DNA of 64,000 nt from Kaistia granuli DSM 23481 (GTDB taxonomy: Bacteria > Pseudomonadota > Alphaproteobacteria > Rhizobiales > Kaistiaceae): positions 186,001 through 250,000 of the forward strand of contig NZ_AQYH01000010.1 in NCBI RefSeq assembly GCF_000380505.1. Reading direction: 5' to 3'. The translations under genes and the position numbers were made by a program. The notes under the pieces were generated by a model. It had not been told where the DNA came from. It ran no database searches and saw only the letters and a program-made list of their open reading frames with translations. Below, piece after piece: positions 4,835 to 14,215 of this stretch; positions within the stretch are counted from its first letter, which is position 1, and each line of letters opens with the position of its first letter.

Positions 4835-5007
4835 TGGCTCGGTTGGAGGCGCGGCGTCCGGCATAGCGAATGTCGGACATGGGTGGATTACTGCCTGTCG
4901 GCTCCTGGTTAAGCATCCAACCTCAGTGTCGTAGCCACGGTGTTGCCGCACAGCGCGAATCGGCGCTTAGTGAAGAACAAAACAGAAACGAACTTGGAGA
5001 TTGCGCG

Positions 5008-5424
5008 TTGACCGCTACCAAAGCCGCCATTGCTAGGTTGGAGGGAATCACTGTGCTCGCAGAGGACGTAGCGAAGCTCGCTACCTTCTATCGTGACGCG
5101 CTCGGCCTTCGCGTTGACGTCACGGAGCAGAACTACGTCGCCTTTGGAGGCGAAGGCATCCGCCTTGCCATCTTCTCTAGGATCGGCATGAGCCCCAATA
5201 CGCACGATCACCCTGATTACCGCACGCCGTTCACTGGCCAGGCCTTCGAGCTGAATTTCGAATGTGCATCGACGGACGATGTCAACGAACGGTTTAGCCA
5301 CATCGTGGCGAATGGCGGGCGATCCATCGCCGCCCCCACGAAGAAGCACTGGGGACACTATGCCGGCTTCTTTGCCGATCCGGAGGGCAACATCCACAGC
5401 CTCTTCGCCGTTCTAGCTGAGTAG
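5008..5424 (+). CDS. VOC (glyoxalase/bleomycin-resistance) family protein
   Basis: A roughly 138-residue protein with one vicinal-oxygen-chelate module: ITVLAEDVAKLATFYRDALGL at the start, then strand patterns through FELNFECASTDDVNERF to GHYAGFFADPEGNIHSLF. The final DPEGN(I)H(S)LF pattern is typical of the family, which includes metal-dependent lyases, dioxygenases and drug-binding proteins; the substrate is unknown. I chose TTG 5008 because GGAG lies 8 nt upstream and homology starts just after it. The frame is open back to ATG 4870, but that 46-residue extension looks non-coding. It stands alone between the kup relic and the convergent MFS gene. Confidence 0.8.
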   Translation: MTATKAAIARLEGITVLAEDVAKLATFYRDALGLRVDVTEQNYVAFGGEGIRLAIFSRIGMSPNTHDHPDYRTPFTGQAFELNFECASTDDVNERFSHIVANGGRSIAAPTKKHWGHYAGFFADPEGNIHSLFAVLAE

Positions 5425-5603: not shown

Positions 5604-6800
5604 TCAGTCGGCCGGGGCTTCGGCCGCCTGTTTGCGGCTCGGGCGGAGCAGAAAGACCAGCAGCGCCAGGAAGCCGACGGCGACCGAGACCGGCAACGCT
5701 TCCGCGCCGAACAGGTCCATGAGGAAGCCGATCGGCGTCGAGCCGATGACGGAGCCGGCCGAATAGGCCATGGCGAAGCCGGTCGAGACGACGGCGAGCC
5801 GCTGGCCGCGGAAATCCTGGCCGATCAGGACGATGCCGAGCGTATAGAGGCCCGACACGGTGCCGCCGGCGAGGAAGACGACGGGCTCGAGCAGGAACGC
5901 CTGGTTCATCACGAACGGGAAGGCGAGGGTGCTTACCACCGCCAGCACGGCGCAGCCGATCAGCGTCAGCCGCCGGCCATGCCGGTCGGCGAACCAGCCC
6001 AGCGCCACGATCAGCACCGCCTCGCCGAGGCTGAAGATGGCGACCAGGCGCGAGGCGCCGGCGTCGGTCAGCCCGTGCGCCAGGCCGTAGAGCGGCAGCA
6101 GGCTCTGCATCGCCGTCTCGCCGATGCCGGTCAGGAAAGCGGCGGCGATCAGGCTGCCGGCCAGCGTCAGCGACATCCTGAGCGTATGGACGTCGCCGCT
6201 CTCCTCCTCGTCCTCGACGTCACCGACGGCCGAGCGGATCGAGAGCGCCACGGCAACGCCGATGGCGAGCGGGATCATGGCGACGATCAGCGGCAGGCTG
6301 CCGGTCGAGCCGGTGCCGCTCAGCAGCAGGGGACCCATGAACTGGCAGGCGGCGTAAAGCGTGCCGGAGGCGCCGACGATGCGGCCGCGATTGCGGTCGT
6401 CGACGACGCCGTTCAGCCAGATCTCGGTCGTCGTCCACAGCGCCGAGAAGCAGGTGCCCATGACGAAGCGGGCGACGAACCAGACGGCGATGTTGTCGAA
6501 GGCGAAGATGGCGGCGAACGAGGCAAGCGACAGCGCGAACTGCGCCGCCACCAGCAGGCGCAGCCCCATCCGGTCGATGAGCCAGGGCACGAACGGGCCG
6601 AAGATCAGGATGCCGGCGCCGGCGATCGAGGCGTTGAGGCCGATCAGCCAGGTGGCGATGCCCTTCTTTTCGAGCGCGAGCGAGAAGAACGGATAGGAAT
6701 AGCCGAACAGCAACGCCTCGATGCCGATCAGCAGCAAGACGCCCGCGACGCGCCAGTACCGGGTTCGCGCCGCGGTCGGTCTCGTGTCTCTCGATTGCAT
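5604..6800 (-). CDS. MFS transporter
   Basis: A 398-residue inner-membrane protein of the major facilitator superfamily with about 12 hydrophobic helices. The loop after helix 2 reads PWLIDRMGLR, and the second-half equivalent is GWFADRHGRRLT, both matching the MFS loop signature. The N-terminus MQSRDTRPTAARTRYWRVAG is basic and cytosolic. The ATG at 6800 overlaps the stop codon of the upstream SET gene by one base (TGATG), so it is translationally coupled and third in the operon 8150-5604. It is probably an exporter for a product made or modified by the two upstream proteins (inference). The substrate is unknown. Confidence 0.88.
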   Translation of the reverse strand: MQSRDTRPTAARTRYWRVAGVLLLIGIEALLFGYSYPFFSLALEKKGIATWLIGLNASIAGAGILIFGPFVPWLIDRMGLRLLVAAQFALSLASFAAIFAFDNIAVWFVARFVMGTCFSALWTTTEIWLNGVVDDRNRGRIVGASGTLYAACQFMGPLLLSGTGSTGSLPLIVAMIPLAIGVAVALSIRSAVGDVEDEEESGDVHTLRMSLTLAGSLIAAAFLTGIGETAMQSLLPLYGLAHGLTDAGASRLVAIFSLGEAVLIVALGWFADRHGRRLTLIGCAVLAVVSTLAFPFVMNQAFLLEPVVFLAGGTVSGLYTLGIVLIGQDFRGQRLAVVSTGFAMAYSAGSVIGSTPIGFLMDLFGAEALPVSVAVGFLALLVFLLRPSRKQAAEAPAD

Positions 6801-7213
6801 CAGATCTCGCAGAGCGGCTCGGGGCACCAGCAGCGAATGCCCTGGGGAACCAGGTCGAAGGTCCGGTAGTCGGCGGTCAGTTCCTCGCCGACGGCGATAT
6901 CGCGATCGGCAAAGACGTAAAGCTGGTCCTCCACCCGTGTGTTCGGATGGCAGGAATGGTTGAGGAAGTCGATGCCGGCTGGCTCTTCCACCGGCAGCAG
7001 GCAGAGCAGCTTGCGGCCGATCAGCTTCAGATGGACGGACTGCCGCCACCAGTAGTCGTCGAGCTCGCTCTGCTTGTCGAGGTCGATCAGCATCGCCTTG
7101 CCGTCGAAGAAGCCGAGCAGCGTGTCCTTCGGGATGGTGGCCTTGGCATGGATGGTCTGGTGATCGTCGCTGATCGCCCGGACCTCGATGACTTCATCGT
7201 TCGTGTAGCTCAT
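6800..7213 (-). CDS. SET domain-containing protein (putative lysine methyltransferase)
   Basis: A 137-residue protein consisting almost only of a SET domain, the fold of S-adenosylmethionine-dependent lysine methyltransferases. The two core motifs are present: FLNHSCHPN at residues 83-91 and GEELTADY at residues 109-116. A post-SET-like zinc motif C128-x-C130-x4-C135 closes the protein (CWCPEPLC). The usual GxG cofactor motif near the N-terminus is not obvious; FFDGKA at 35-40 may take its place. It is the middle gene of a tight operon: 4 bp separate it from the unknown gene upstream and its stop overlaps the MFS start. Its target could be a protein or an amino-acid-like small molecule. Confidence 0.85.
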   Translation of the reverse strand: MSYTNDEVIEVRAISDDHQTIHAKATIPKDTLLGFFDGKAMLIDLDKQSELDDYWWRQSVHLKLIGRKLLCLLPVEEPAGIDFLNHSCHPNTRVEDQLYVFADRDIAVGEELTADYRTFDLVPQGIRCWCPEPLCEI

Positions 7214-7217
7214 GCGG

Positions 7218-8150
7218 TCACTTCCTGAAGTCGAAAGCTGGGATACCGCCGGACTGTCCGTCACGGCTTGCCTGATAGCGTTGACCGTCGAATAGCGCAG
7301 CGAGCCAGCGCTCGCAAAGGCGGTGAGCATAGACCACCGGCATTTCGTGGTCATGCGGCTCCTTCGCCAGCTCGGCGAAGACCGGGTCGTTGTGGGGCGC
7401 CGTCCAGTATTGCTGGTCGTCGGAGAGATGCACGGAGCGCTCCGCCGTCGCCGACACCTTCTGGTAGCCCTGGATCGTGTTGATCGACATCTTCTGCCAC
7501 GCGGCGGCGCATTTGTGCAGCAGCCGTTCCAGCTCGCGCCGCTCGCGCACCTCGTGCGGGGCGCAGTGGAAGTGACGCTGGCACAGGTCGCGCACCAGCA
7601 TCGCGAAGGCGAAGGCGTCGGAGGTGGTGTTGATCGCGAGGAACGGGGTACTGAGCGCCGGATCGTAGAGCGGATCGGCGACGGCGGCGGCATGGGGGCA
7701 GAAGGCGACGGGGAAGAACTCGTAGATCGTCGGAATGCCGGTGACAGGGCAGACGACGTCGAACGGGATCGCCACCGTCTGGCTGTTGACCAGGGCGCCG
7801 GCGCTGTCGGCATGGCCGGCATCGACCATGATCTGGGCGAGCAGGCGCAGTTCGTCCTCCGAGTTTGAGAAGCTCAACGGGGTGGCGACGATCGCCAGGA
7901 AACCGGTCTTCCGGTACTCCTCGACATCCTGCCGGAAGGTGTTCAGCGCCTCGGAGAACTGGTAGCCGTTGCGGACATGCGCGACCGTATAGCGGCCAAG
8001 CTGAAACTCCCGCTTGCCGGCGGAACAGCGAAGGTCTGCCTGCAACCAGTCGTCAAACTCGTTGTTTGACGGTACTTTGGGATGAAATGGGCAGCCGACG
8101 GCGACCGAAGACGCCATCCCAGCCGAATCATCATCCGGTGGGAAGTTCAT
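7218..8150 (-). CDS. Protein of unknown function, first gene of SET/MFS operon
   Basis: A 310-residue soluble-looking protein that I do not recognise. There is no signal peptide or membrane helix. It is rich in Cys and His in short clusters: C20-P-F-H23, C151-P-H153 and C190-x2-H193-x-H195-C196-x2-H199, which suggests metal binding. The middle (residues ~80-180) alternates hydrophobic strands and acidic loops and could be an enzyme domain. ATG 8150 has a GGGGGC stretch upstream as a possible ribosome site. It is separated by only 4 bp from the SET gene, so the three genes are surely co-transcribed. Upstream DNA is unusually AT-rich for this genome. Confidence 0.8.
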   Translation of the reverse strand: MNFPPDDDSAGMASSVAVGCPFHPKVPSNNEFDDWLQADLRCSAGKREFQLGRYTVAHVRNGYQFSEALNTFRQDVEEYRKTGFLAIVATPLSFSNSEDELRLLAQIMVDAGHADSAGALVNSQTVAIPFDVVCPVTGIPTIYEFFPVAFCPHAAAVADPLYDPALSTPFLAINTTSDAFAFAMLVRDLCQRHFHCAPHEVRERRELERLLHKCAAAWQKMSINTIQGYQKVSATAERSVHLSDDQQYWTAPHNDPVFAELAKEPHDHEMPVVYAHRLCERWLAALFDGQRYQASRDGQSGGIPAFDFRK

Positions 8151-8451
8151 ATTGCCCCCGCAACGCTACCCAGACTTTACTTGGACGTGATTGGTTTGAA
8201 ATTGGAGGCAAATTCGAAGCAAAGTCAACCATATTATAGCTGAGTCTACTGTTCTCTTTCATGCGAAGGCCTCCGTCCGCGCCGGTCGAAAGAGGGCTTC
8301 GAACTGCCGTTTGGAATCGCTCATTCCCAGCTGCCCCTGCTCGGTGCGGTCCGTACCCCAGCTATCACTAAAATCGTCGGGAACCGGTTAAGGCCGCATA
8401 AAAGGCTGATGCGTAGGGTAGCGCGTCGAAGAAAAGAGATGGACACGACGT
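8151..8451. promoter_or_regulatory. Intergenic region with AT-rich divergent promoter zone
   Basis: This 301-bp gap between the minus-strand operon and the plus-strand CHASE4 gene has no gene I can support. On the minus strand a perfect TATAAT lies at 8238-8233 and a TTGACT at 8228-8223, but neither is paired with a good partner at 16-18 nt. The stretch 8190-8260 is clearly AT-richer than its surroundings and is the likely promoter zone for the SET operon. Confidence 0.35.
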
Positions 8452-10665
8452 ATGTCTCACCCAATCGCCGGGCGAATTACATTCAATCTTGTAGCCGGCA
8501 TTGTCGTCACGATCGTGACTGTCATCTCGGGCGTCGCATGGATGGCTTATCGCCAGAACGATCAGGCCGCCGAGCAGACACGCACCATGGTGATGGGTGG
8601 CGTCGACGCGATGCATACGCGGGTCCAGGGCCTGGCCAACGACTATTCCTGGTGGGAAGAGGCCTATGATGCCTACGGCCGGTCCGACAAGGAGTGGATC
8701 GAGGCGAATATCGGCACCGGCATCATCGATACCCAGATCGCCGACTTCCTGGCGATCATCTCGCCCGAGCACGAGTTGATGTATGGCTGGTGGACGCCGG
8801 CCGACGCGCCCAATTCCGAAACGGTGATGTCGCCGAAGCTGATCGAGAAGATCGAGGAGCTGATCCGCACGGCGCCGATCGAGAACAATGCCGCGCGTTC
8901 CTCCTATGTCCAGACCTCGGCGGGGACGCTGCTCTTCGCGGTGTCGCGCATCGCGCCGGTGTCGAAGGTCGATACGGTCGACCCAAAGAACCTGCCCGTC
9001 CTCGTCATGGGCTTCTATCTGAGCAATCAGCGCCTGTCGGAACTCGGTCGCAGCTTCCTCATCAACGACCTACGCCTGGAGCGCGAGGATGCCGCGCATT
9101 CGGCCAAGGACTTCCCCGAGATCCGCGACATTTACGGTAATGTGATCGGCCGCTTCGTCTGGACCCCGCCGACGCCCGGCTTCGCCGTGCTCCGCAACGT
9201 GGTGGCGCCGATCGCCGGCGGCTTGCTGGTGTTCTGCCTGATCGCGATGTGGACCGTGCTGAGGGCCCGCCGGCTCGCCCTGTCGCAGGCGCTGAGCGAG
9301 CATCAGGCCATCACGGCGGCGCGCACCGACAGCCTGACCGGCCTGACCAATCGCTACGGCTTCAACGAGCTCAGCGACAGCGATCAGTTCGGCGAGGCCT
9401 GCGCCAAGGCCGAGGCAGCGATCATCTATCTCGACGTCAACGGCTTCAAGTCGGTCAACGACTCCATCGGCCACCAGGGCGGCGACGAGCTGGTCGGCCT
9501 GCTGGCCGAGCGGCTGTCGATGATCCTGCCGCCGGACGCCCGCTTCGCCCGCGTCGGCGGCGATGAATTTGCCGTGGCGCTGACCGGGCGTTCCGCCCCG
9601 GCGGCGGTGGCCGGCGTCGCTTCGGCGATGGTGCACGCGCTCGACCAGCCCTTCAGCGTCGCCGGCTTCCAGTTCCAGGTGACGGCGGCGGTTGGCTATG
9701 CCGTCTCCGACGGCCAGGACGTCACGCCGGCCGAATTGCTGCGCCGGGCCGACCTTGCCATGTACCAGGCCAAGAACGCGGCCGAGCGCGACGCGGTGCC
9801 CTATCATTCGGGGCTCGAGACCGGCGCCTTGCACCGAAAGCGCCTCGGCATCGCGCTGCGCGGCGCCATCGAGGGCGACGAGCTCTCGGTCGCCTACCAG
9901 CCGATCGTGCGGGCCAGCGATCTTGCCATCGTTTCCGTCGAAGCGCTGGTGCGCTGGGACTCGAAGGAGTTCGGCCGCGTCTCACCGGCCGAGTTCATCC
10001 CGGTCGCCGAGGAGACCGGCGCGATCCATGACATCGGCAAGTTCGTGTTCCAGCGCGCCTGCCAGGACATGATCGAATGGCCCGGCCTGAAGATGTCGAT
10101 CAACGTCTCGCCGGCCCAGCTGCGCGATCCGAGCTTCGCCAATGATCTCGGCGCCATCGCCCGCCGTCATGACGTCGTGCCCAACCGCTTCAAGCTCGAG
10201 CTGACCGAGGGGCTGCTGGTCCGCAACCCGACCATCGCCAAGCGCAAGCTGGCGCGGCTGAAGTCGATGGGCTTCGGCCTGTCGCTCGACGATTTCGGCA
10301 CCGGCTTCTCGTCGATCGGCTACCTGCGCCAGTTCCCGTTCGACTGGCTGAAGATCGACAAGTCCTTCATCTCGGAACTTGGGACCAATCCGACCGCCAA
10401 CGCGCTGATCCAGTCGATGATCGCGCTTGGCGACGCCATGGACATCGCCGTCGTCGCCGAGGGCATCGAGACGGTCGAGCAACTGCAGCTGTTGCGCCTG
10501 CTGCAGTGCGAGTACGTGCAGGGTTTCCATCTTGCCAAGCCGATGTCGGCGGCCGAGATCACGACGCTGTTGGCCGACCTCGGCGACAGCCGGCGGCTCT
10601 TCCCCGATCTGGCGCCGCCGCCCATGCTGGACAAGGAACGGCTGATCAATCTCGTGCGGACCTGA
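8452..10665 (+). CDS. CHASE4-GGDEF-EAL cyclic-di-GMP signalling protein
   Basis: A 737-residue membrane-bound cyclic-di-GMP enzyme. An N-terminal helix (residues ~9-30) and a second helix (~250-270) bracket a periplasmic CHASE4 sensor domain with its hallmark NDYSWWEEAYDAY at residues ~63-75. The cytoplasmic GGDEF domain keeps GGDEF at ~369-373, so diguanylate cyclase activity is possible. The EAL domain keeps EALVRW at ~497 and the later LDDFGTGFSS and DWLKIDKSFI motifs, so phosphodiesterase activity is likely. ATG 8452 is used; an ATG at 8439 is out of this reading. It is paralogous to the protein at 12038-14215, one gene away. Confidence 0.93.
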   Translation: MSHPIAGRITFNLVAGIVVTIVTVISGVAWMAYRQNDQAAEQTRTMVMGGVDAMHTRVQGLANDYSWWEEAYDAYGRSDKEWIEANIGTGIIDTQIADFLAIISPEHELMYGWWTPADAPNSETVMSPKLIEKIEELIRTAPIENNAARSSYVQTSAGTLLFAVSRIAPVSKVDTVDPKNLPVLVMGFYLSNQRLSELGRSFLINDLRLEREDAAHSAKDFPEIRDIYGNVIGRFVWTPPTPGFAVLRNVVAPIAGGLLVFCLIAMWTVLRARRLALSQALSEHQAITAARTDSLTGLTNRYGFNELSDSDQFGEACAKAEAAIIYLDVNGFKSVNDSIGHQGGDELVGLLAERLSMILPPDARFARVGGDEFAVALTGRSAPAAVAGVASAMVHALDQPFSVAGFQFQVTAAVGYAVSDGQDVTPAELLRRADLAMYQAKNAAERDAVPYHSGLETGALHRKRLGIALRGAIEGDELSVAYQPIVRASDLAIVSVEALVRWDSKEFGRVSPAEFIPVAEETGAIHDIGKFVFQRACQDMIEWPGLKMSINVSPAQLRDPSFANDLGAIARRHDVVPNRFKLELTEGLLVRNPTIAKRKLARLKSMGFGLSLDDFGTGFSSIGYLRQFPFDWLKIDKSFISELGTNPTANALIQSMIALGDAMDIAVVAEGIETVEQLQLLRLLQCEYVQGFHLAKPMSAAEITTLLADLGDSRRLFPDLAPPPMLDKERLINLVRT

Positions 10666-10711: not shown

Positions 10712-12001
10712 ATGACAATGCATCAGAGCGCGCTGCAGGGGACACTATCGGCCGAGGAAGCGCGTCGCGTCGCGCTCGCGGCGCAGGGATTTGGCGGCGG
10801 CCGGGACCCGACGCCGTCGCAATGGCGGCGCATCGCCCCCGTCGTGGCGCGCATGGGCCTGCTGCAGATCGATTCCGTCAATGTGCTGGTGCGCTCCCAC
10901 TACCTGCCGGTCTTCAGTCGGCTCGGCGCCTATTCCCGCGCCGCCCTCGACGAGCGAGCCTTCGCCGGTGGCACCAAGCGGGCGCTGTTCGAATACTGGG
11001 CGCACGAGGCCTCGCTGCTGCCGCTGGATTTCCATCCGCTGATGCGGTGGCGGATGAAGCGGGCGGCGGCCGGGATCGGCATCTATGGCGGCATCGTCAA
11101 GTTCGCCGCCGACAACCCCGACTATATCCGCGCGGTGATCGCGGAGATCGGCCGGCGCGGTCCGCTTAGCGCCAGCGAACTGGATGATCCGGGCACTCGC
11201 AGCGGTCCCTGGTGGGGCTGGCACAAGGGCAAGACGGCGCTCGAATATCTGTTCTGGACCGGCGAGGTGACGACGAGCCACCGGCGCGGCTTCGAGCGGG
11301 TCTATGACCTGACGGAGCGCGTCATTCCGGCGGCGATCGGCAGTGTGGCGACGCCCGACGAGGCCGATGCCATCCGCGCCCTGACGCTGGCCGGCGCCCG
11401 CGCCCATGGCGTGGCGACCGAGATCGACATCCGCGACTATTTCCGCCTGCCGGTCGCCGAGACCAAACTCGCGCTCGCCGAACTGGTCGAGGCGGGCGAC
11501 CTCGAGCCCGTGAAGGTCGACGGCTGGAAGCAGCCGGCCTACCTCGCCACCGGCGCCGTGATCCCGAAGCGGCTGGCGCCGACGGCGCTGCTGTCGCCGT
11601 TCGATCCGCTGGTCTGGCATCGCCCCCGCACGGAACGGATTTTCGATTTTCACTACCGGCTGGAGTTCTACACGCCGGAGCCGAAGCGCATCTTCGGTTA
11701 TTTCGTCATGCCGTTCCTGCATCGCGGCCGGCTCGAGGCACGCGTCGACCTGAAGGCGGACCGCGCCGGTGGACGGCTGCGGGTTTTCGGCGTGTTCGCC
11801 GAGGCGGGGCTGCGCCGGACGGACGACATGATCGGCGCCCTGGCGCTGGAGTTGCGGCACCTGGCCGACTGGCTGAAATTGCCCGAGATCCGCGTCGAAG
11901 CCGAGACGTCGCTGGCCGTGGCGCTGCGCGAAATCCTGTGCAGGGTCGAAAACCGTTCAACAACCATGGATATGCTTCATTCGTCCTTAAGGTCGGAGTG
12001 A
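10712..12001 (+). CDS. YcaQ-like winged-helix DNA glycosylase family protein
   Basis: A 429-residue protein of the winged-helix HTH_42 group, whose members include E. coli YcaQ and the AlkZ/AZL glycosylases that unhook DNA crosslinks and remove bulky lesions. Support comes from ARMGLLQIDSVNVLVRSHYLPVFSRLG near residues 47-73, where the Q-x-D (QID) catalytic motif sits. Further support is FEYWAHEASLLP (~95) and the wing-like IDIRDYFRLPVAETKLALAELV (~242). The C-terminal ~100 residues (LSPFDPLVWHRPRTERIFDF) are diagnostic. ATG 10712 is preferred. It lies between two paralogous cyclic-di-GMP genes with short gaps, so it may be co-transcribed with them, although no functional link is known. Confidence 0.88.
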   Translation: MTMHQSALQGTLSAEEARRVALAAQGFGGGRDPTPSQWRRIAPVVARMGLLQIDSVNVLVRSHYLPVFSRLGAYSRAALDERAFAGGTKRALFEYWAHEASLLPLDFHPLMRWRMKRAAAGIGIYGGIVKFAADNPDYIRAVIAEIGRRGPLSASELDDPGTRSGPWWGWHKGKTALEYLFWTGEVTTSHRRGFERVYDLTERVIPAAIGSVATPDEADAIRALTLAGARAHGVATEIDIRDYFRLPVAETKLALAELVEAGDLEPVKVDGWKQPAYLATGAVIPKRLAPTALLSPFDPLVWHRPRTERIFDFHYRLEFYTPEPKRIFGYFVMPFLHRGRLEARVDLKADRAGGRLRVFGVFAEAGLRRTDDMIGALALELRHLADWLKLPEIRVEAETSLAVALREILCRVENRSTTMDMLHSSLRSE

Positions 12002-12037
12002 TTGTATGCCGCTGGGGAAGTTATCTTCAGCGGTGCC

Positions 12038-14215
12038 ATGAGTCTCATTCCGCGCTCGACCTTCAGATTTGCGCTGCGCATCGCCTTGCCGGTCCTTCTC
12101 GTGCTGGCAGGATCGATCGTCTTCATGATCGTCGCGCTGACCGAAATGGCCGGCGAAGTCGACCAGATCGACGCCGTGGCGACCGAGCGCTCCGCCGAGG
12201 CGTCGCTGCAGGCCCTGCTCAAGCGCTTGCGCGATGCCCATGGCGATTATGCCGTCTGGGATGACGCCGCCGTGGCGCTGTACGGCAAGGTCGACACCGA
12301 ATTCGCTACCCGCAATTTCAAGGAATCGACGCGTTCCGCCGTCTTCTTCGACGCCGCCTATCTCCTCGACGAGAACGGCCAGCACCTGTTCGCCTATCGT
12401 CATGGCGGCGTCGCGCCGCGCGGGCCGCTGGAGGAGTTCGGCTCGCCGCTGCAGGTGATGATGACGGCGCTAGCGCGGAACTATACCGAATATGATGCCC
12501 AGGCCGGCATCATGAAGGACCGGTCCGGCGCCATCGCGGCGGTGGCGGTCGGGTCGATCTATCCCACCACGCGCGGCGTTGAGCGCGCCGTCGGCCGGCC
12601 GCGTCTGCTCGTGCTCGCCCACACGCTCGACGACCGGTCGATCCGGCGCATGGGCGCCGATTTCGCCATCGAGGGCATGTCGCTCAGCTTCGATCCGAAC
12701 TTCGACGGCCAGCATGTCCAGCTCGTCGATCCGACCGGCAAGAAGGTCGGGGCGCTGACCTGGCAGTATAACAGCCCCGGCAACGAGGCCTTCCAGCGGG
12801 TCGCCCCAGTCGCCTATGTGACGCTCGGGCTGATCGGCCTGACCATCCTGTTCCTGCTCGGCATCGGCTACGCCAATCTGGTGTCGGCGCGCCGGCGCGA
12901 GCATCAGGCCGTCTATGACGCGCATCACGACAGCCTGACCGGCCTGCCCAACCGGGCGGCCCTGACCAAGGGGCTCGATGTCGCGGTTCGGCGGGGCGGC
13001 ACGGAGGCGCTCGCCGTCGTTTTCCTCGATCTCGACGGCTTCAAGGAGGTCAACGACTCCTATGGCCACGATACCGGTGATCGCCTTTTGGAGCGCGTCG
13101 CCCGCGGGTTCAAGGCGATCTGCGCCCACAAGGGATTGCTGGCGCGCGTCGGCGGCGACGAGTTCGCCCTTGTGCTCGACAGCCCCGACGCTGTCAGCGC
13201 CGCCGAGGAGATCGCCAATCGCCTCGTCCAGTTCCTGCACGCGCCGATCCATCTCGACGGCAGGGTTCTGACCGTCGGTACCAGCGTCGGCATCGCCTTC
13301 GCCGACGAGGGCGGAATCTCGGCCGAGGAACTTTTGCGCCGTGCCGATGTCGCCATGTACCAAGCGAAGGAACTCGGCCGCAGCCGCGTCGCCCTCTATG
13401 ACCGGTCGATCGACGCCGAGAAGCTCGAGCGCCGGCTGCTGGCCGACGATCTCAGAATCGCGCTCAAGGGAAATGCCCTGAAGATCGTCTATCAGCCGAT
13501 CTACGACGCCGCGACCTTGCGACCGGCGCTGGTCGAGGCGCTGCTGCGCTGGCAGCATCCGGTTCGCGGCGCGGTTCCGCCCGATCTCTTCATCTCCGTC
13601 GCCGAGGAAATGGGGCTGATGGACGAGCTCGGCACCTGGGTGCTGCGCCATGCCTGCCTGGACGCCGTGGCGTGGCCGCAGGTTCGCCTCGCGGTCAACG
13701 TCTCGGCCGTGCAGTTCCGCAATCCCGGCTTCGATCGGATCCTGGCCTCGATCCTGTCGGAAACCGGCCTGCCGGCCGCGCGGCTCGAAGTCGAGATGAC
13801 GGAGACGAACCTCGTCTCCTATCCCGATCGCGCGCAGCACATCGTCGCCGTGCTGCGCGTCCTCGGCGTCACCGTGGCGCTCGACGATTTCGGCACCGGC
13901 TATTCCTCGATCGGCTATCTCCGGCGCTTCGCCTTCGACAAGCTGAAGATCGACCGCTCGCTCGTGCATGGCGTGTCGGTCGATCCCGAGACGCGACGCC
14001 TGTGCGAGGCGACGGTGGCGCTCGGTCTGGCGCTCGACCTCGCGGTCACGGCGGAGGGCCTGGAGACGGAGGCCGACGTCGAGATCATGCGCGCCGCCGG
14101 ATGCTCGCATCTCCAGGGCTACTACTTCGCCCGCCCGATGACGGCCGCAGCCGTCACCGAGCTGATCGCCCAAGCGGAAGCGGAGCCGGTGGCCGAAGCC
14201 CTCCAGCCCGCCTGA
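12038..14215 (+). CDS. CHASE4-GGDEF-EAL cyclic-di-GMP signalling protein (second copy)
   Basis: A 725-residue paralogue of the protein at 8452-10665. An N-terminal helix (LPVLLVLAGSIVFMIVAL) leads to a periplasmic CHASE4 domain with DAHGDYAVWDDAAVALYG near residue 67, then a second helix at ~265-285. GGDEF is intact at ~372-376 and the EAL domain has EALLRW at ~500 plus LDDFGTGYSSIGYL and KLKIDRSL. Both halves therefore look catalytically competent. ATG 12038 was chosen because the upstream TTG 12002 extension abuts the YcaQ-like stop codon and adds nothing family-like. Gene order suggests an ancient duplication around the YcaQ-like gene. Confidence 0.93.
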   Translation: MSLIPRSTFRFALRIALPVLLVLAGSIVFMIVALTEMAGEVDQIDAVATERSAEASLQALLKRLRDAHGDYAVWDDAAVALYGKVDTEFATRNFKESTRSAVFFDAAYLLDENGQHLFAYRHGGVAPRGPLEEFGSPLQVMMTALARNYTEYDAQAGIMKDRSGAIAAVAVGSIYPTTRGVERAVGRPRLLVLAHTLDDRSIRRMGADFAIEGMSLSFDPNFDGQHVQLVDPTGKKVGALTWQYNSPGNEAFQRVAPVAYVTLGLIGLTILFLLGIGYANLVSARRREHQAVYDAHHDSLTGLPNRAALTKGLDVAVRRGGTEALAVVFLDLDGFKEVNDSYGHDTGDRLLERVARGFKAICAHKGLLARVGGDEFALVLDSPDAVSAAEEIANRLVQFLHAPIHLDGRVLTVGTSVGIAFADEGGISAEELLRRADVAMYQAKELGRSRVALYDRSIDAEKLERRLLADDLRIALKGNALKIVYQPIYDAATLRPALVEALLRWQHPVRGAVPPDLFISVAEEMGLMDELGTWVLRHACLDAVAWPQVRLAVNVSAVQFRNPGFDRILASILSETGLPAARLEVEMTETNLVSYPDRAQHIVAVLRVLGVTVALDDFGTGYSSIGYLRRFAFDKLKIDRSLVHGVSVDPETRRLCEATVALGLALDLAVTAEGLETEADVEIMRAAGCSHLQGYYFARPMTAAAVTELIAQAEAEPVAEALQPA

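Follow-up and report, generated by a model that had tools for sequence, protein, structure and literature searches.

Three closely packed genes on the minus strand of Kaistia granuli DSM 23481 form a real and conserved module, which encodes a 310-aa protein, a 137-aa SET protein, and a 398-aa MFS transporter. They lie in the 64,000-nucleotide stretch of DNA analyzed here (the window), which comes from a 4.77-Mb genome. Our best explanation, to which we give a little under an even chance, is that the module makes and exports a small molecule and consists of an oxygenase-like enzyme, a SET methyltransferase, and an exporter. The preliminary description of this DNA had proposed an enzyme-methyltransferase-exporter unit on general grounds and from Cys/His clusters in the 310-aa protein; the general idea stands, while the Cys/His evidence does not. 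The features of the operon are as follows.

7218..8150, minus strand: gene of the 310-aa protein, defined by its ORF and its homologs and without Pfam or NCBIfam match; proposed oxygenase-like enzyme
6800..7213, minus strand: stand-alone SET-domain methyltransferase, 137 aa, with Pfam SET match, NHSC, ADY, and CxCx4C tail
5604..6800, minus strand: MFS transporter (Pfam MFS_1), 398 aa, proposed product exporter; an MFS gene adjoins the 310-aa relative in 16/16 loci
8025..8027, minus strand: codon of Cys42, which aligns with the one Cys that is invariant in 26 YqcI/YcgG rows (AglA Cys44)
8151..8451, no strand: intergenic region separating the operon from the CHASE4-GGDEF-EAL gene that diverges from it, from ORF coordinates

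A conserved operon with a constant transporter partner

The coordinates confirm the spacing given in the preliminary description. Read from start to end, the 310-aa gene (8150-7218) and the SET gene (7213-6800) leave a 4-bp gap (7214-7217), and base 6800 is common to the stop of the SET gene and the start of the MFS gene (6800-5604), a 1-bp overlap. A putative promoter of the operon likely lies in the intergenic region. The CHASE4-GGDEF-EAL gene beyond it (8452-10665, plus strand) adjoins the operon divergently in 11 of 11 compared genomes, even across families. A second CHASE4-GGDEF-EAL gene is found at positions 12002-14215 of the plus strand, and the two flank an AlkZ-like DNA glycosylase gene (10712-12001, plus strand). 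At the other end of the operon, a glyoxalase/VOC-type gene (4870-5424, plus strand; Pfam Glyoxalase, E = 1.6e-15) is convergent to the MFS gene.

Kaistia is a soil-type bacterium, and searching with the 310-aa protein places Kaistia adipata, K. terrae, and K. defluvii nearest among the named relatives. Against K. adipata, dN/dS is 0.10 for the 310-aa gene, 0.11 for the SET gene, and 0.17 for the MFS gene; all three are under purifying selection. These low values, together with the orthologs in other genomes, indicate that the arrangement is more than chance, and a chance three-gene order was rejected.

Relatives of the 310-aa protein are present in 16 of the 297 sampled genomes of the order, in 4 of 289 in the class sample, among them the own genome, and in 1 of 398 in the phylum sample, which is the own genome. 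In all 16 loci of the order an MFS gene directly adjoins the 310-aa relative. The three-gene neighborhood of the preliminary description recurs as a complete 310-aa-SET-MFS order in seven of them (the own genome, G244, G130, G225, G261, G285, and G063) and in two further loci from outside the 297-genome sample, those of K. adipata and K. terrae. The K. defluvii proteins (L020) are identical to those of G244; this is seemingly one genome and was not counted as extra.

Within the same genus, three genomes (G099, G278, and G293) carry the 310-aa gene and the MFS gene without a match to the own SET protein at E ≤ 0.001, and altogether 9 of the 16 genomes with a 310-aa relative lack such a match. 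The enzyme-methyltransferase-exporter unit is conserved, and this reading still fits best, while the SET protein was rejected as an essential or obligatory part of it. SET relatives of at least 60% identity occur in 8 of the 297 genomes: seven belong to the complete set, and one, in G015, lies by an MFS gene without the 310-aa gene, of which no remnant was found in the G015 stretch at E ≤ 10. From this distribution of loci, the MFS gene is the constant partner, and the 310-aa gene and the SET gene can each be missing. The G015 locus (L053, G015:C13:402000-418000) also holds a second, different SET gene (7431-7823, plus strand; 130 aa; Pfam SET, E = 2.8e-9), which separates the MFS gene from the SET gene and is encoded on the opposite strand.

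In another order, 3 of 3 genomes with a 310-aa relative carry a divergent adjacent MFS gene. The relative in one of these is the same protein as that on Tistrella mobilis plasmid pTM3, the one relative found in plasmid records; none was found in phage records or viral contigs. The MFS ORF beside the 310-aa relative in the Tistrella pTM3 stretch (L076 410-1354, L078 6850-7794) is 314 aa long and may be shortened, as its counterparts in two related genomes have 407 aa.

The 310-aa protein and the YqcI/YcgG heme enzymes

The preliminary description could not assign the 310-aa protein, and the HMM search agrees, with neither a Pfam nor an NCBIfam match. None of 11 aligned members has a credible Pfam match, and PDB searches with the protein or its alignments found nothing. 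An AlphaFold model built from an input of 4 close sequences (pLDDT 39.9) was too poor to use. The invariant Cys and His residues of the family are C42, C134, C151, H253, and H268, conserved in 23 of 23 rows (21 distinct, with two identical pairs; hhalign kept 17). Many acidic and aromatic residues are also common to the 23 rows, and the near-invariant Arg residues are 47, 53, and 277 only. The Cys/His clusters singled out in the preliminary description (C20/H23, C151/H153, and C190-H199) were rejected as family-defining: C20, H23, H153, C190, and H199 are missing from the invariant and near-invariant lists of a 21-row alignment, and the clusters are no guide to function because only C151 of the residues named is invariant.

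By eye, the sequence L-x-C-x-A-G-K/R-R-E around C42 was reminiscent of the F-P-C motif in YqcI/YcgG (PF08892), a family that includes AglA, GntA, ChmN, and DcsA, and this was the starting point for profile comparisons. As judged by these, the N-terminal third of the 310-aa protein has a weak but repeatable similarity to the YqcI/YcgG heme-thiolate N-oxygenases. The hhalign E value against YqcI/YcgG fell from 0.16 with 12 rows to 0.0028 with 18 rows and 1.4e-4 with 26 rows (probability 53%); these rows were 12 from genomes plus 6 of 19 and 8 of 34 plasmid-record matches listed, picked for diversity, their addition ended after the third set, and the hypothesis was drawn from the same sequences that were tested. 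The eight rows added last, which are not of the GntA type, gave E = 0.037 alone. When the alignments were made anew (21 and 26 rows, the sequences being mostly unchanged), E was 1.2e-4. Residues 1-105 alone reached E = 3.5e-5 (probability 72%), a pairwise value that would be inconspicuous if all 24,736 Pfam families were searched blindly. The similarity spans residues 27-103, about 75 residues around the invariant Cys, and persists at E = 0.018 with residues 40-54 removed; after about residue 105, no YqcI/YcgG similarity was found (hhalign, E = 0.46). Aligning the complete proteins globally with hhalign gave no meaningful result and was set aside.

Column shuffles of the 26-row set never reached the observed score of 37.35 (0 of 750; maximum, 29.2), and 2 of 900 shuffles of the 18-row set reached the score observed there. 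In 24 comparisons of both families with 12 other alignments, which came from neighborhood ORF clusters by a home-made gene caller and may include some wrong frames, the score was at most 20.5 versus 37.35. The register of C42 was kept in five of six subset pairings (E = 0.0013, 0.0014, 0.0089, 0.15, and 0.24), which overlap and are not independent, the 26-row set containing the other two; the sixth pairing picks a short CPF match at another site.

In this register C42 aligns with the sole invariant Cys of YqcI/YcgG (26 of 26 rows), and by hhalign it takes the place of the (F/Y)PC-type motif Cys after an N-terminal helix, a likeness and not a membership. The corresponding residue of AglA (PDB 9ubb) is Cys44, with numbering counted along the printed alignment, in which Arg166 is the second Arg of RxxR. 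Cys44 is described as binding the heme iron of AglA, and Arg166, Lys196, and Arg200 as binding the heme carboxylates (PMC12866846). RxxR is invariant in YqcI/YcgG (26 of 26 rows) and at no position invariant in the 23-row alignment of the 310-aa family, so the 310-aa protein was not filed in YqcI/YcgG. The rest of the protein stays unaligned, and the Pfam model misses it: hmmscan gave no PF08892 match in 11 family members at E ≤ 10, nor was one found in the own genome, and the family profile searched against the PDB does not find AglA. KinJ, whose heme family is newly described in connection with N-N bonds (PMC12154649), was also considered and, on this description only, left aside.

On this profile evidence, the N-terminal part of the 310-aa protein probably works like YqcI/YcgG. 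In our proposal it would share descent with the fold of these heme-thiolate N-oxygenases, Cys42 would be the putative axial heme ligand, and the enzyme would oxidize an amino-acid-like substrate. Alternatively, the 310-aa protein may be a metal-dependent enzyme with an unrelated new fold, for which invariant C134, C151, H253, D255, E260, and H268 are possible ligands; the likeness at C42 would then be convergence or chance, and the gene set would still make and export a small molecule. Most invariant residues indeed fall in the C-terminal two thirds, the part that bears no likeness to YqcI/YcgG, and the failure of the protein to match any family library or the PDB is in keeping with a new fold. 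The similarity of residues 27-103 nevertheless exceeds all 750 shuffles and the 24 decoy comparisons, and its register recurs in most of the non-independent subset pairings, which leaves the metal-dependent enzyme possible and rather doubtful.

The pairing of enzyme and exporter has a parallel, since YqcI/YcgG genes too can adjoin an exporter, of the LysE family in two of three Bacillota records. On Priestia and Parageobacillus plasmids (L085 and L091), the YqcI/YcgG gene directly precedes the LysE-family gene, an arrangement not seen in the third record (L092). As to the product, a small secreted metabolite or a modified metal ligand was suggested in the preliminary description; the partial link to YqcI/YcgG is compatible with that suggestion and is no proof of it. 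Chalkophomycin binds copper. The YqcI/YcgG member ChmN is described as acting in chalkophomycin biosynthesis (PMC10849742).

The SET protein, the transporter, and their evolution

SET methyltransferases are best known from animal chromatin. The 137-aa protein matches Pfam SET (PF00856) with 47.8 bits versus a cutoff of 22.4 (E = 2.2e-12), and the motifs read in the preliminary description are all in place: NHSC at 85-88, GEELTADY at 109-116, and the CxCx4C end as C128-W-C130-PEPL-C135. All four Kaistia sequences compared share N85-H86-S87-C88 and the active-site Y116. As with the 310-aa protein, an AlphaFold model from 4 close sequences (pLDDT 34.7) was too poor to use. Among PDB chains, an H3K36 histone methyltransferase matches best (7ea5, E = 1.7e-6), followed by the methionine S-methyltransferase BurB (9l4t, E = 1.9e-5). 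With the former type the protein shares the SET core, NHSC, and a post-SET-like CxCx4C; unlike histone methyltransferases, it leaves in its 137 aa no room for more domains and shares an operon with a transporter. BurB is likewise a small stand-alone bacterial SET protein with HSC, DY, and a Cys-rich tail, but only residues 81-135 align with it, and its gene lies between that of an unclassified enzyme and that of an MFS protein, whereas burB reportedly belongs among malleicyprol genes. BurB is described as methylating free methionine, which it holds via main-chain contacts (PMC12542666), so that the substrate of the SET protein is not readable from its sequence. From the operon setting and by analogy with BurB, we infer that a small molecule is favored as substrate; the SET protein would use SAM to methylate the same small molecule that the 310-aa enzyme oxidizes, as BurB does with methionine.

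The third protein was called an MFS transporter in the preliminary description, and Pfam MFS_1 (PF07690) bears this out with 99.1 bits versus a cutoff of 33.4 (E = 3.2e-28). Its best NCBIfam match is PRK03633 “MFS transporter,” which we take to be YcaD; this is the nearest NCBIfam family, yet the score of 75.2 bits is far under the curated cutoff of 361, and the protein was therefore not filed there. In the proposed module it would export the product, that is, its predicted direction of transport is outward.

Evolutionary rates of the MFS protein were compared with those of the CHASE4-GGDEF-EAL neighbor as control in 11 genomes, on a fixed topology written after the control-gene tree and with 40 bootstrap resamples; G278 and G130 were omitted because their stretches are too short for the control gene. 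The ratio of MFS to control rate is 0.44 (0.30-0.58) when summed over eight tips that have the complete set, 1.47 (0.98-2.02) for the SET-less clade (G293 and G099), and 2.8 (1.99-3.99) for G015, without the 310-aa gene. On two internal branches within complete lineages the ratio is 1.72 and 1.20, and on two further branches of the tree it is close to 1. Sequence identities point the same way: in SET-less genomes of the genus the MFS protein shares 67% of its residues with the own one, and in G225 it shares 82%, although G225 is only a little closer by the control gene (78% versus 73 to 75%). In a tree of MFS alone, the SET-less clade groups with G015 with hardly any support (0.07) and falls outside Kaistia, a placement that differs from that by the control gene. 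The data suggest, from a post hoc analysis of two losses against one control gene, done once these identities had been seen, that the MFS protein changes more quickly in both lineages from which a partner has disappeared.

This result bears on whether the SET protein is instead a protein-lysine methyltransferase, which would act on the 310-aa enzyme, the transporter, or another protein and regulate the module without tailoring a product. The lead of the H3K36 enzyme over BurB among the PDB matches speaks for such a role, and the three same-genus genomes that keep the other two genes without a SET match are conceivable if a regulator was lost. Faster MFS evolution after SET loss fits a change of cargo better, and BurB, as described (PMC12542666), shows that a small SET protein can act on free methionine; neither point is decisive, and we regard methylation of a protein as rather unlikely.

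Distant loci and the role of the module

Beyond the genus, six distant loci of the order (L012 to L017) differ in that the MFS gene is divergently oriented and a more distant relative, and a MarR-type gene lies on the opposite side of the 310-aa relative in six of six (Pfam was run on three of the six MarR proteins). The three MarR-type regulators examined (L059, L060, and L061) end in a Cys-rich tail, CR(L/V)CxLExCPQExC(P/A)VN, and such a Cys-tailed regulator is possibly a metal or thiol sensor. A MarR gene with a divergent MFS gene is a layout frequent in drug- or phenolic-responsive efflux. The placement of the 310-aa relative between the two is what a self-protection module would offer, in which the enzyme oxidizes and the SET protein methylates a toxic compound, external or metabolic, that the MFS protein expels; with no relative of the distant-locus MarR genes in the window (best E = 0.35) and nothing against a biosynthetic role among the neighboring genes annotated, such a function appears improbable for the operon studied here.

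Returning to the make-and-export reading, a more far-reaching form of it would have the 310-aa protein found a new family of thiolate-heme oxygenases, composed of a YqcI/YcgG-like N-terminal part and a new C-terminal domain, and yield, with a small-molecule SET protein and an exporter, an N-oxygenated and methylated amino-acid-type metabolite in Kaistia and its relatives. Taken as a whole, this is a speculation that we think more apt to fail than to hold. No description of the gene set was found in the open-licence PubMed Central papers searched, and likewise none on Kaistia with a SET domain. The make-and-export reading, if true, would extend the recently recognized non-P450 thiolate-heme N-oxygenases to a family undetected by Pfam and NCBIfam, and it would place, besides BurB, another SET domain in small-molecule metabolism. 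Single genes of the module have been lost naturally in some genomes, which makes it readily testable.
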